Program-made: the position numbers and the translations under genes
Notes under the pieces: generated by a model
Databases searched by the model: none
Told to the model about the DNA's origin: nothing
What the model saw: only the letters and a program-made list of their open reading frames with translations
In this document: positions 3,393 through 12,113 of the stretch, in pieces
Layout: each line of letters starts with the position of its first letter
How positions within the stretch are numbered: position 1 is the stretch's first letter
NCBI GenBank assembly: GCA_024641305.1
Contig: JAHEDI010000034.1
Coordinates: forward strand, 1,346 to 34,590
DNA: 33,245 bases
Reading direction: 5' to 3'
Source of the DNA: a bacterium
GTDB taxonomy: Bacteria; Actinomycetota; Acidimicrobiia; Spongiisociales; JAENVV01

Positions 3393-3400
3393 TTTTTTTT
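3380..3400 (+). terminator. Weak possible terminator at the end of clpX
   Basis: A run of eight T (3393-3400) directly follows the clpX stop. Before it is only a short hairpin (acgc 3380-3383 with gcgt 3387-3390, 3-nt loop) that overlaps the last codons. The T tract is convincing and the stem is not. Confidence 0.35.
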
Positions 3401-3480
3401 CACTCATTCCCACGCTACGAATTGTCTTTCCCGTAGGGCGGTTGCGGCTTAACGCTGCCTGAATTGAGTCGACCGACCCA

Positions 3481-3509
3481 TTGACGGGAACTACCGAGAG
3501 TGGTTGAAT
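3481..3509 (+). promoter_or_regulatory. Putative promoter of the surface-protein pair
   Basis: A -35-like TTGACG (3481-3486) is separated by 17 bp from a -10-like TTGAAT (3504-3509). Transcription would begin near 3516, which places the start of the RNA immediately before the first leader hairpin and gives a 5' leader of about 190 nt. Read from consensus only. Confidence 0.45.
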
Positions 3510-3515
3510 GACATC

Positions 3516-3702
3516 GCGGGGAGAATTTATTCCCCCAGCAGCATCCCCTGAAGGGGGGGGAAGCAACAAGAATACGGCTCTGTGGAGCCGAAAAGGGGAA
3601 CTGGGAGGCGATGACCTTCGATTCGTTAGTACGGTCACCGAGAATCGAAGCGAGCTAGTGGTGAGACCGGCCCGCCCACATCTACATAGATGAGAGGCGG
3701 AA
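3516..3702 (+). promoter_or_regulatory. Structured 5' leader RNA, candidate cis-regulatory element
   Basis: This non-coding stretch between clpX and the first surface-protein gene can form consecutive helices: 3518-3521/3532-3535, 3545-3548/3553-3556, a 6-bp stem with 4-nt loop at 3575-3590 (cggctc/gagccg), and a 9-bp stem 3616-3624/3642-3650 (cttcgattc/gaatcgaag). The 17-nt loop of the last holds cggtc (3632-3636), complementary to gaccg at 3665-3669, a possible pseudoknot. The C5 tract at 3532-3536 could instead pair with the G8 tract at 3553-3560. It ends in a hairpin over the ribosome binding site. I compared it from memory with cobalamin, c-di-GMP, ydaO, fluoride and ZTP riboswitches and could not match any. 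Function is inferred. Confidence 0.5.
3672..3700 (+). promoter_or_regulatory. Shine-Dalgarno-sequestering hairpin
   Basis: ccgcc (3672-3676) pairs with ggcgg (3696-3700), and an inner stem catct (3679-3683)/agatg (3688-3692) closes a 4-nt loop. The 3' arm contains the ribosome binding site gaggcgg, eight bases before the ATG at 3709, so translation would be blocked when the hairpin is formed. The 5' arm could alternatively pair with ggcg at 3607-3610. Confidence 0.55.
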
Positions 3703-3708
3703 TTGAAG

Positions 3709-6700
3709 ATGCAAGCTGTAGAGACCCGGCGTCGAGTCGGATTCCTTATGATTGCCATTGCGGTGCTGTTGGCATCGTTTGTTGTTGTTGCCCCCCGAGT
3801 CCAAGCGGCCGGCGGAGACTTCGGTCTCGACTTTGTTGCTGCGGCTCCCAACTCGTATAACCATGCCACCGGCGGTGGAGCCTTCAACGACCGTACAGTC
3901 GGGGTGAATGACGACATTGTCGAATCGCTCCAGGGTGGCAACTTCACGTGCGGGGATACGGTCACCTACCTCCTGCGTGTCACCAATACGGCGACGCCAT
4001 CACACCCCGTACAGACGCTGAAGTTTCACATGAGCTTTTTGGCTGACACAACCGGTCAACCTGGAGCGGCACATTCTGCGGTGACCAAAGTCGCGCTGAA
4101 TTACGGTGTGGGTGACACGGGTATCAGCGACGACGGCGGCAGCGCCATCACCAATCAGAGTTCTTCACTTTCGAAGCCACTCTTCACCAAAGGCGCCACT
4201 CTCGAGTTGGATTTCAACGTAACCGATATGGAAGCGGGCGAAAAGGTGGTTGTTCGGGTTGACACCACGTTGGCGTGCGATCCGGGATCCCGGCCAACTG
4301 GCAACCTACAAGCCTCTCTGACCGGCGCCCAGGTAATTGACCCGGTGAACTCGAAGATCACGAGCGGATCAGGTAACCAAACCATCCCGTTCCAGAAGAT
4401 CGGCGAGTTGATTGTCGTACCTCAGCCAGGCGAGATCATCGTCGTCAAGCAGACGCTGCCCGACGGAGCGACCCCGCTCTTCAACTTCACGTCTTCCTGG
4501 GGGGCCTTCCAACTCGGTGACGGGCATACCACCTCCTCTGGATCCCTCGACGCCGGCACGTACTACGTGTCTGAGACCCCTGCCGACGGTTGGACGTTGT
4601 ATTCGTCCGTCTGTGACGACGGGAGTCCGGTCAGCAATATCAATCTGGGTGAGGGAGAGACCGTCACCTGTACGTTTGTCAATGAGTTGATTCCACTCAT
4701 CCCGGCATCGGTATCGGTGAGCCCGGGGACCTGTGCCTGGATCAACGAATCGTCGGTCACGGACGTCTCCTTCACGGTCGATCCCGGGGCCACCCTGACC
4801 ATCATGCTCGGTGACGTTGTCATCGGAACGTACACGGCGTCCGGGACCATCGAAGTCGGTCCTGGCGATTACACCTGGACGGCCACTGCCGCAACCGGAT
4901 ACGAGATCAGCGGTTCGGCTTCTGGCAACTTCACCGCCATTTCGTGCGAGATTCCACCCGAGATCGTCACCGTCGACGTGACCGTGGGAACCTGCAGCTA
5001 CATCGATGGCGAGTCGCTGACCGGTGTGACCGCCAGCATCGACCCCTCCGGGGCAGCGACCATCGTGATCGATGGCACGATGGACCTTACGATCGACGGA
5101 CAGACACTGACGGTCACTCCTGGAGACCACTCGTGGACTGCGGTGGCGGCTGAAGGATATGTTCTCGAAGGAACCTCTGGTGCGGACTTCACAACGGAAG
5201 CTTGCCCTCCGCCGGGTTCCATCGGTGACACCGTTTGGCATGATCTCAATGCCAACGGTGTCCAGGACGCAGATGAACCGGGAATCGCCGATATCGCGGT
5301 CTCGTTGCTGGTTGACGGCGGCATCATTGCCACCGCAACCACCGATGCCTCGGGTAACTACCTGTTCGAAGGCCTTGGCGAGGGCGACTACGTCGTCGCG
5401 TTTGCGATCCCGGATCCCTGGGTGGCGACCACCCAGGACGCTGGTGACGATGCCGCCGATAGTGACATCGACCCATCCGGGAACGCACCGGCCGTCACGC
5501 TCGGGGTCGGGGAAGACAACCTGACCGTCGATGCTGGTCTGGTCCGTCCGTCGACGATCACGGTCGAGAAGGTGACGAGCCCGGTTGCCGCCGGGAGCTT
5601 CGCCTTCACCGGAGATATCGAAGCGGATCTGGCCAACGGACAATCGGCTTTCTCTTCGGTTCTTCCCGGGACCTATACGGTGTCCGAGTCGATACCTGAC
5701 GGGTGGGCGCTGGTTGACATCAGCTGTACGACTGGCGGAACCGGCGACTTGACCACCGCCACCGCCACATACACGGTCGCCTCGGGCGATAGTGTTACGT
5801 GTACGTACACCAACACGAACGTTGGGACGATCATTGTGGCCAAGGCCACCGACACGGCAACCGAAGATCGGTTTGACTTTACGGTCGGCGAGGACAGTTT
5901 CGACCTCGGGTCAGGTGAGAGTATCGAGCTGGACTTACCGAGCGGGATCTATACGATCACCGAGGATTTGCTGTTGCTCGATGGCTGGGACCTGGCTTCG
6001 ATCGTTTGCTCAGGTGAGCCGACGGTCGATGGCAATAGCGTTTCGCTCTTTGTCCCACCGGCCCAAACTGTCGGTTGTACGTTCGTAAACACCCAGGCCG
6101 AGGTACCTCTGGGGGTAGTTGGAGACTTTGTGTGGAACGACGTCGACGGCAATGGTATCCAGGACGCCAATGAGTCCGGGGTTGCCAACGTGGGCGTCGA
6201 CCTGCTTGACGCAACCTCAGGATCGGTCCTGCTCTCCACCACGACGAATGAGGCCGGGGTGTACGTCATTGCCAATGTGCCCGAAGGGGACTACGTCATG
6301 CAGTTCTCCGTTCCCGAGCCGTGGGTGTTCTCACCGGCCGATGCCGGTAGCGATGACGCAGCTGACAGTGATGTCGTAGAGGTTGTTGGCGTGAACGCTG
6401 GGGCGGCCGGTCTGATGACCGGTGCGTCGACTTCGGTACTGGCGGCGGGCGGAACGGTTGGAAGGACGGCACTGTTCTCCCTGGTGGCTGGGGCGACGAA
6501 CGTGACCCTTGATGCGGGCATATTCGAGCTTCTCGTCTTGCCGGAGCCGCCGATCTCGAACCCGGAAACGCCGGTGGTGACGCCACCAGCACCGACCGTC
6601 GATGACACCAAAGTGCTCGGTATTCAGACTACATTGCCCCAGACAGGCTTTGCCGACTGGCAGGCCGGGGTTTTGGCGGTCGCATTGGTGCTGGCCGGAG

Positions 6701-6780
6701 CCGGAGTGCTCATGGCATTCCGAAAAGAAGAAGACATTATCTACATGACGTCGGGCTTCAGTGATCGGCTCGGCCTCTAA
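3709..6780 (+). CDS. Large LPXTG-anchored modular surface protein
   Basis: Predicted cell-wall-anchored adhesin-like protein of 1023 residues. I chose ATG 3709 rather than TTG 3703 because gaggcgg (3694-3700) is well spaced only for the ATG. In order: signal peptide 1-34 (RRR then a hydrophobic core, VQA cleavage region); an unrecognised N-terminal domain to about 225; a SpaA-like prealbumin-fold module about 241-326; two Cys-bracketed modules (Cys342-Cys413, Cys429-Cys499); an SdrD B-like domain about 503-613; two more SpaA-like modules about 617-704 and 705-795, each ending in a CTYTN or CTFVN motif; a second SdrD B-like domain about 802-937; a proline-rich linker; LPQTG at 976-980; a membrane segment and FRKEED. 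The sorting signal implies a sortase, but none is in the window. No catalytic motif is seen, so an adhesive or structural role is inferred. Confidence 0.88.
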   Translation: MQAVETRRRVGFLMIAIAVLLASFVVVAPRVQAAGGDFGLDFVAAAPNSYNHATGGGAFNDRTVGVNDDIVESLQGGNFTCGDTVTYLLRVTNTATPSHPVQTLKFHMSFLADTTGQPGAAHSAVTKVALNYGVGDTGISDDGGSAITNQSSSLSKPLFTKGATLELDFNVTDMEAGEKVVVRVDTTLACDPGSRPTGNLQASLTGAQVIDPVNSKITSGSGNQTIPFQKIGELIVVPQPGEIIVVKQTLPDGATPLFNFTSSWGAFQLGDGHTTSSGSLDAGTYYVSETPADGWTLYSSVCDDGSPVSNINLGEGETVTCTFVNELIPLIPASVSVSPGTCAWINESSVTDVSFTVDPGATLTIMLGDVVIGTYTASGTIEVGPGDYTWTATAATGYEISGSASGNFTAISCEIPPEIVTVDVTVGTCSYIDGESLTGVTASIDPSGAATIVIDGTMDLTIDGQTLTVTPGDHSWTAVAAEGYVLEGTSGADFTTEACPPPGSIGDTVWHDLNANGVQDADEPGIADIAVSLLVDGGIIATATTDASGNYLFEGLGEGDYVVAFAIPDPWVATTQDAGDDAADSDIDPSGNAPAVTLGVGEDNLTVDAGLVRPSTITVEKVTSPVAAGSFAFTGDIEADLANGQSAFSSVLPGTYTVSESIPDGWALVDISCTTGGTGDLTTATATYTVASGDSVTCTYTNTNVGTIIVAKATDTATEDRFDFTVGEDSFDLGSGESIELDLPSGIYTITEDLLLLDGWDLASIVCSGEPTVDGNSVSLFVPPAQTVGCTFVNTQAEVPLGVVGDFVWNDVDGNGIQDANESGVANVGVDLLDATSGSVLLSTTTNEAGVYVIANVPEGDYVMQFSVPEPWVFSPADAGSDDAADSDVVEVVGVNAGAAGLMTGASTSVLAAGGTVGRTALFSLVAGATNVTLDAGIFELLVLPEPPISNPETPVVTPPAPTVDDTKVLGIQTTLPQTGFADWQAGVLAVALVLAGAGVLMAFRKEEDIIYMTSGFSDRLGL

Positions 6781-6791
6781 GTACAAAAGTT

Positions 6792-6821
6792 GGGGTCCCG
6801 GGAATAACCCTCCGGGACCCC
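6792..6821 (+). terminator. Intercistronic hairpin between the two surface-protein genes
   Basis: A perfect 10-bp stem (ggggtcccgg 6792-6801 with ccgggacccc 6812-6821) closes a 10-nt loop. It starts 12 bp after the stop of the first surface gene. No T tract follows, so it may be a weak terminator or an mRNA-stabilising hairpin that sets the ratio of the two proteins. I find no convincing promoter between it and the next gene. Confidence 0.55.
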
Positions 6822-6864
6822 GTAAAGAGTTAGCCAGGGTAAAAGGCGCTTGGGAGGCGGACAA

Positions 6865-8115
6865 ATGAATACGAATGTGAAAGACATGAGACAACGAGTC
6901 GGGTTTGTGATGATTGCTGCGGCGGTGCTCCTCGCATCGTTCGTGATCATGGCCCCCCCGGTCCAAGCCACCGGACAAGGTGACGTCATCGAATCGACGA
7001 GTTTGACGCCGGTGGTTGTCAAGATCGTGCAGGGCTCGTGTGACTACCGGAACGGACAGTCCGAGGTCAATGTGACCTTCTCGTTCCGCCATAACGGCGT
7101 GAATACGACCGGCAAGGTTGAGATGACCATCGACGGGCCGGCCGGGACGATCGTTTTGTCCCAGAAGACCGAGATTGAACTTCCGTCAGGCACATACACC
7201 TGGACAGCCAAATCGATCAACGACGGCTATGAAATCGAAGGACCTGATTCTGGCGAGTTTGTGGTGGGTGAGTGCGTTCCTGGGCCAGAACTTGCCCCGG
7301 TGGTCGTCAAGATCGTGCAGGGTTCATGTGATTACCGTGACGGAGAGTCGCTGACCAATGTGACGTTCTCGTTCCGCCATGACGGTGTGAATACGAGCGG
7401 CAAGGTTGAGATGACCATCGACGGGCCGGCCGGGACGATCGTTCTGTCCCAGAAGACCGAGATGGAACTTCCGCCAGGCACGTACACCTGGACGGCCAAA
7501 TCCATTGATGCTGCGTATGAACTCGAAGGCCCGGACTCGGGAGAGTTCGTCGTAGAGGGCTGTGCACCTGAAGCCGAAATCGTCGAGGTGACTGTAAGTG
7601 TTTTGCCTGCCGACTGTGTATGGACCGATGAGCAGTCTCTAACCGGGCTTACGGCTTCGATCAGCCCCGATGGTGGGGCGATCATTGTGGTCGATGGGAC
7701 CATCAACCTGACCTTCGATGGACAGACGGTCAACGTTGGACCGGGCAATCACACCTGGACGGTCGTAGTTGCCGAACCGTACAAGATTGTCGGAGACGCA
7801 GAGGGCGCCTTCACCACCGACGCTTGCGAACCGGAAGTCCTGTCGGATGTCAAAACTCCTGAAACGCCGGTGGTTACTCCTGACGTTCCCGTGGTGGAGA
7901 CACCGGACACACCGGTCGTCAAGACCCCCGAAAAGCCGTCGGTTGCCAGCGACACGAAGGTGCTGGGAATTCAGACAACTTTGCCGGCCACGGGTTTTGA
8001 TGACGGGCAGACGGCGGTACTGGCACTGGCGTTGATCCTGGCGGGGGCGGGCATATTGCTGGCCTTCCGAAAGGACGAAGAGACGGCCGTGTTGTCCGGG
8101 GCCTGCGGCAGCTGA
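6865..8115 (+). CDS. Smaller LPXTG-anchored surface protein with three Cys-bracketed modules
   Basis: Predicted wall-anchored protein of 416 residues, paralogous to the gene before it. ATG 6865 is preceded by gggaggcgg (6852-6860); a TTG at 6850 would place that ribosome binding site inside the gene. Residues 1-36 are a signal peptide with the same RVGF...VLLASFV...APPVQA pattern as its neighbour. Three tandem modules follow, bracketed by Cys59-Cys137, Cys155-Cys233 and Cys251-Cys321. The first two are 96 residues apart and nearly identical in protein and DNA. Each has a GTYTWTA-like or NHTWTV-like strand before the closing Cys. A Pro/Thr/Val-rich stalk (PETPVV, PDTPVV) precedes LPATG at 373-377, a membrane helix and FRKDEE. 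No enzyme motif is seen. Confidence 0.87.
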   Translation: MNTNVKDMRQRVGFVMIAAAVLLASFVIMAPPVQATGQGDVIESTSLTPVVVKIVQGSCDYRNGQSEVNVTFSFRHNGVNTTGKVEMTIDGPAGTIVLSQKTEIELPSGTYTWTAKSINDGYEIEGPDSGEFVVGECVPGPELAPVVVKIVQGSCDYRDGESLTNVTFSFRHDGVNTSGKVEMTIDGPAGTIVLSQKTEMELPPGTYTWTAKSIDAAYELEGPDSGEFVVEGCAPEAEIVEVTVSVLPADCVWTDEQSLTGLTASISPDGGAIIVVDGTINLTFDGQTVNVGPGNHTWTVVVAEPYKIVGDAEGAFTTDACEPEVLSDVKTPETPVVTPDVPVVETPDTPVVKTPEKPSVASDTKVLGIQTTLPATGFDDGQTAVLALALILAGAGILLAFRKDEETAVLSGACGS

Positions 8116-12083: not shown

Positions 12084-12093
12084 ATTCTCACTC

Positions 12094-12113
12094 AGGGTGA
12101 CGGTGTTCACCCT
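12094..12113 (+). terminator. Hairpin after folC
   Basis: agggtga (12094-12100) pairs with tcaccct (12107-12113) over 7 bp with a 6-nt loop. There is no T tract. It sits just upstream of the ndk promoter, as expected for a terminator of valS-folC. Confidence 0.5.

Follow-up and report, generated by a model that had tools for sequence, protein, structure and literature searches.

The stretch of DNA analysed here (the window; 33,245 nucleotides) carries on its forward strand two genes for LPXTG proteins, the first of which is preceded by a candidate promoter and a structured leader (Table 1). The product of this first gene starts with a signal sequence, carries two SdrD_B domains and SpaA-type domains, and ends in LPQTG, a membrane span and a basic tail. 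It gives a partial match to the NCBIfam MSCRAMM Sdr model; identity as an SdrC or SdrD orthologue was rejected, the scores lying far under the NCBIfam cut-offs. The genome encodes two sortases, along with four GGDEF and two EAL proteins, enzymes for the synthesis and breakdown of c-di-GMP. The gene thus combines a signal peptide, B-type repeats and a C-terminal LPXTG motif with a sortase in the same genome, as sortase-anchored MSCRAMM-like proteins do, and its product is predicted to be an LPXTG-anchored, adhesin-like protein, with adhesion as its presumed output.

The second LPXTG gene has no riboswitch of its own in the Rfam scan of the window and probably shares a transcript with the first. 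Between the two genes lies a very strong hairpin (6791-6822, GGGGTCCCGGGA...TCCCGGGACCCC; z = -2.93 for the region) without a T-run, which is possibly a processing or attenuation element.

Table 1. Features of the leader and of the genes behind it (window coordinates).
Feature	Position	Strand	Basis
Promoter footprint, unbroken run of 32 bases invariant in five members of the genus	3474..3505	+	alignment A2
Candidate -35, TTGACG	3481..3486	+	read from sequence; 17 nt from TTGAAT; weak
BldD-box-like candidate operator CTACCGAGAGTGG, AC-N5-GT core, in promoter spacer	3491..3503	+	PWM from other genera
Candidate -10, TTGAAT	3504..3509	+	read from sequence; predicted
Hairpin I, genus-specific	3516..3539	+	fold; genus alignment
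Hairpin II, genus-specific	3541..3564	+	fold; genus alignment
Hairpin III, directly 5' of P1	3575..3590	+	fold; genus alignment
Aptamer, c-di-GMP-II-GAG	3595..3679	+	RF03169, 65.7 bits, cut-off 40
P1 5' strand, core 3 bp, GGG, partner 3671-3673	3603..3605	+	99.1% of cells paired, 36 sequences
P2 5' strand, ggc, partner gct 3654-3656	3607..3609	+	100% of cells paired
P3, 9-bp stem 3616-3624/3642-3650 plus loop	3616..3650	+	two-sided changes, 9/10 pairs
Pseudoknot, 3632-3636/3665-3669 and 3637-3639/3660-3662	3632..3669	+	98.6% of cells paired
Expression platform, P1 3' strand (3671-3673) doubling as 5' arm of SD hairpin	3671..3700	+	pair probabilities, energies
SD-masking hairpin 3672-3676/3696-3700, inner stem 3679-3683/3688-3692	3672..3700	+	sequence, fold
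Shine-Dalgarno (SD) region AGAGGCGG	3693..3700	+	sequence
First LPXTG gene, ATG 3709; signal peptide, SdrD_B and SpaA-type domains, LPQTG	3709..6780	+	translation; Pfam PF17210, PF24514, PF17802
Second LPXTG protein gene	6865..8115	+	TIGR01167 LPXTG_anchor above cut-off

The aptamer and its relatives

An Rfam scan of the whole window assigned positions 3595-3679 of the forward strand to RF03169 (c-di-GMP-II-GAG), with an alignment that spans the model from end to end (1-86/86) and a score of 65.7 bits against a gathering score of 40. This is the sole non-tRNA Rfam match in the window, and the genome contains one copy. RF03169 outscores its sisters in clan CL00127, two weaker overlapping matches to which were discarded. 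The aptamer agrees with RF03169 at every strongly conserved consensus position; in the Rfam alignment, pairing is poor in the outer part of P1. The earlier note had read the leader as belonging to no known riboswitch class, which the Rfam search shows to be wrong: the family is already known, and this riboswitch adds a member to it. A class I c-di-GMP riboswitch was not found in the genome, and the control genomes likewise gave no signal for that class.

The helices proposed in the earlier note are all present in the sequence where it had placed them. Its perfect 9-bp stem is P3 in the numbering used here, which is our own, and its loop-to-tail pairing is the pseudoknot, whereas the core-closing P1 and P2 had been missed. 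The pseudoknot had been drawn too short: the pairing of cggtc (3632-3636) with gaccg (3665-3669) stands, and acc (3637-3639) pairs with ggt (3660-3662) as well. In an alignment of 36 distinct relatives (A1, made with MAFFT) onto which the window's structure was written, 93.6% of cells are paired overall. Covariation in homologues, on which the earlier note had staked its proposal, is found for the 9-bp stem: in P3, 86.1% of cells are paired, and nine of the ten pairs show two-sided changes. The pseudoknot is almost invariant, with a two-sided change at one pair. The covariation score is 0.345, compared with 0.176 (sd 0.010) in shuffled alignments and never above 0.118 with slid structures; the shuffles and permutations keep the relatedness of the sequences, so that these figures are supportive rather than exact probabilities. 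Because the Rfam match is full-length and the 9-bp stem covaries, the helices go beyond chance.

The leader as a whole (3516-3709) folds at -70.3 kcal/mol, compared with -58.8 (sd 4.2) for dinucleotide shuffles (z = -2.73; 3 of 200 equally good). Between promoter and aptamer lie three hairpins (3516-3590) that were seen only in the genus of the window. Across five genomes 84% of their cells are paired. Hairpins I-III are kept within the genus but, with only one two-sided change in these five sequences, are not proven structures.

RF03169 occurs in 27 of 99 relatives and in 81 of 296 sampled genomes of the class, compared with none of 14 control genomes. A hydrophobic N-terminal stretch is encoded by 46 of the 47 genes behind homologous riboswitches, and 19 of the 27 complete downstream open reading frames have an LPXTG end. 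These homologous leaders, together with the signal peptide and LPXTG motif of the window's own product, support the surface-protein target that the earlier note had proposed for the leader. Riboswitch-LPXTG units are frequently duplicated in clusters, 1-4 kb apart (L005, L032, L033, L034, L036, L043, L044), and at L005 the unit is flanked by a clpX-like end and a valS-like start, the same arrangement as in the window. A second, more divergent copy of RF03169 precedes another secreted protein in a genome of the same genus (L040; G003:C21:4200-4283); no such second copy is present in the window's genome. A DNA search for plasmid relatives found none, and a strict pattern scan of genome contigs gave a single match, in an uncultured actinobacterium.

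Expression platform, sign of the switch and ligand

The SD-masking hairpin with its inner 5-bp stem, which had been recognised from the sequence, has a pair probability of 0.93-1.0 in the free RNA. Its 5' arm is contested, as the earlier note had said; the competitor, however, is GGG at 3603-3605 (P1) and not ggcg at 3607-3610. When the aptamer was modelled by imposing P1, P2 and P3 and excluding the bases of the pseudoknot from pairing, the cost of opening 3693-3700 in the window fell from 8.6 kcal/mol in the free RNA to 2.1, folding energies that leave the pseudoknot out. Among 42 leaders whose start codon could be assigned, aptamer formation lowered the mean cost from 6.47 to 3.30 kcal/mol; the cost decreased in 34 leaders and increased in three. 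When P1 alone was omitted the cost stayed at 5.84 kcal/mol, so P1 is what frees the SD site in these models. The 3' strand of P1 also pairs better with the SD region of its own leader (-14.67 kcal/mol) than with those of other leaders (-13.15, sd 0.37; 0 of 2000 permutations), which bears out the SD-masking side of the covariation argument. Exchange of the 5' and 3' strands of P1 between leaders gave no energy signal (1003 of 2000 equally good) because the GGG/CCC core is nearly invariant. In one family P1 consists of TAGG/CCTA plus GGG/CCC, the ribosome site reads GGGGTAGG or GGGATAGG, and P1 and the ribosome site both pair with one CCTATCCC strand.

The aptamer and the SD-masking helix are thus mutually exclusive, and the SD region is more open with the aptamer formed, as in a translational ON switch. 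Without ligand, the C-rich strand 3' of the pseudoknot (3671-3677) would pair with 3696-3700 and translation would be blocked. Binding of c-di-GMP to the core of P1, P2 and pseudoknot would hold this strand in P1 through GGG 3603-3605, thereby freeing the ribosome site so that the protein is made. Taken together, the opening costs, the effect of omitting P1, the preference for the own SD region and the design seen in one family predict a translational ON switch, which the models make the most likely sign; in cells, too, the leader would be expected to act in this direction. The class II c-di-GMP switches of C. difficile are uniformly ON (PMC6200980), a behaviour that supports an ON switch here by analogy and is not proof. 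The opposite sign, in which c-di-GMP binding would mask the ribosome site, is unlikely. In the window, an SD hairpin shortened to GCC/GGC and the inner stem survives at a probability of about 0.78 despite P1, so that the two can coexist, and in V. cholerae the class I Vc2 RNA switches translation OFF (PMC7371385). Against this, P1 and the SD hairpin contest one strand, and in 34 of the 42 leaders the SD site is more open with the aptamer, with P1 as the cause.

An ON switch of this kind is predicted from the sequence to respond to c-di-GMP. The RF03169 family presumably binds this messenger, and the original description of the c-di-GMP-II-GAG family reportedly gave it as the ligand. Related riboswitch classes include variants with altered specificity, and c-di-GMP as the ligand of this particular RNA is a prediction; both points leave some room for an RF03169-like RNA that has kept its fold and changed to another cyclic dinucleotide. 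Such a change is very improbable, however, given that all strongly conserved positions of RF03169 are matched and that the genome encodes GGDEF and EAL proteins. A protein-bound leader, whether autogenous or not, that merely resembles a riboswitch would accommodate the three genus hairpins 5' of the aptamer, which have no known role, but is hardly credible beside a full-length match to a curated family, a conserved pseudoknot and covariation. The riboswitch architecture with a translational expression platform proposed in the earlier note is accordingly upheld by the RF03169 match, the competing pairings and the energies. With good confidence, control of this sortase-anchored, adhesin-like surface protein can be assigned to a c-di-GMP-II-GAG riboswitch in the leader, acting through a translational platform.

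The promoter and BldD

Upstream of the leader, the footprint at 3474-3505 is 100% invariant in five members of the genus, compared with 36% for the 74 bases at 3400-3473. Since a sigma-70 consensus promoter scan lists no site at 3481-3509, the promoter, and a transcription start near 3515, are put forward as candidates.

Many homologous riboswitch leaders are preceded by a CAC-N5-GTG palindrome, which occurs in 41 of 73 non-redundant upstream regions, where about 5 are expected from shuffles. In 8-fold cross-validation its PWM found 43 of 72 held-out upstream windows, compared with 17 of 820 control windows, which were mostly coding. The palindrome resembles the BldD box of Streptomyces, 5'-TNAC(N)5GTNA-3' (PMC4151990). 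At the candidate operator, which lies inside the invariant footprint between TTGACG and TTGAAT, the AC-N5-GT core matches and the outer T and A are replaced by C and G. With a PWM built without the window's genus, 3488-3506 is the second distinct site in the 33-kb window (10.5, with the next at 10.3 and 10.1). The top site (12085-12103, TCTCACTCAGGGTGACGG) is located in the gap before a gene that starts like nucleoside diphosphate kinase. Ten bases (ACCGAGAGTG) are common to the window site and to the one that precedes bldD in this genome. The recurring CCAC-N5-GTGG hairpin was also considered as a conserved RNA helix (P0) before P1 and was rejected: a DNA operator fits better because the sequence is conserved rather than pairing alone, the motif lies at variable distance, and a copy is found upstream of bldD too. 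BldD may bind 3491-3503 in a c-di-GMP-dependent manner.

The BldD of this genome (L097, open reading frame 1201-1707) has a helix-turn-helix and the c-di-GMP signature RXD-X8-RXXD as RQD-FNGRVLTI-RRSD. It matches the C-terminal domain PF21179 at 51.3 bits (cut-off 27); its best PDB sequence match is 2ewt, and the C-terminal domain structures 4oaz and 5khd match too. Because it reaches 128.6 bits against a cut-off of 250 for the NCBIfam BldD equivalog, it is best regarded as a BldD relative and not as a certified equivalog. The best PWM site of the bldD locus, an exact BldD box (TCACCGAGAGTGA, L097:1162-1180), lies directly upstream of the gene. The bldD-upstream region ranks first among about 24 windows in 16 of 31 bldD loci, compared with about 1.3 expected by our own arithmetic, an excess consistent with BldD autoregulation.

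Because the palindrome is enriched, the footprint is invariant and the BldD carries RXD-X8-RXXD, the window gene may read c-di-GMP twice, at the promoter and in the leader. The messenger would build the BldD dimer, which would act on the promoter operator, and the riboswitch would gate translation of the same transcript. Whether sortase-anchored surface-protein genes throughout the class read c-di-GMP in series in this way, through BldD at the promoter and a riboswitch in the leader, is in our judgement an evenly balanced question. One family of the order (f3) seems largely to have lost the c-di-GMP signature of BldD and kept the riboswitch. Its riboswitches have the motif upstream, yet the BldD homologues examined outside genus g22 are without RXD-X8-RXXD, and no BldD match was obtained in three genomes of genus g35; thus, the site in f3 is used either by a BldD that does not depend on c-di-GMP or by a different protein. 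The f3 homologues L133, L134, L135, L136 and L137 keep the helix-turn-helix and have lost the signature, in genomes that keep riboswitches.

Known systems and significance

The window aptamer shares with RF03169 (CL00127) the full-length match, the P1-P2-P3 and pseudoknot architecture and the conserved core, but differs in its weakly paired outer P1 and in the three extra upstream hairpins of the genus. In C. difficile, two class II c-di-GMP switches control sortase-dependent surface proteins (PMC6200980). These switches, Cdi-2-1 and Cdi-2-3, belong to the same class II clan, have the same kind of target and are ON; the window RNA differs in being a GAG variant whose control is predicted at translation, through SD masking. 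In Bacillus thuringiensis, the Bc2 RNA precedes the gene for a wall-anchored collagen adhesion protein and is switched ON by c-di-GMP (PMC4933901), although it has a class I aptamer and an antiterminator mechanism. Streptomyces BldD, with its TNAC(N)5GTNA box and RXD-X8-RXXD signature (PMC4151990), resembles the window genome's in box and signature, whereas the targets of its regulon are sporulation genes.

A literature search of partial coverage, and hence weak as evidence of absence, found no report of a BldD site together with a c-di-GMP riboswitch. To our knowledge, a riboswitch and a protein that read one messenger at the same gene are known only from V. cholerae tfoY, where parts and wiring differ. 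There, c-di-GMP is read by the Vc2 riboswitch and by the c-di-GMP-binding factor VpsR at one gene (PMC7371385); BldD is the candidate factor in the window. However, Vc2 is a class I OFF switch and the VpsR promoters bypass it, whereas the candidate BldD site of the window is in the promoter of the leader itself.

A leader that had been taken for an orphan is thus corrected to a known riboswitch class, and its predicted translational switch is simple enough to test. In Firmicutes, c-di-GMP riboswitches were already linked to sortase-anchored adhesins; this link is now extended to a little-studied class of actinobacteria. The BldD-box signal suggests a gene at which a protein and an RNA both sense one second messenger. 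Repression by BldD combined with activation by the riboswitch, the pattern of the best-studied examples, would confine the response to mid-range c-di-GMP or to a pulse; with BldD as an activator, the two layers would make the response sharper.
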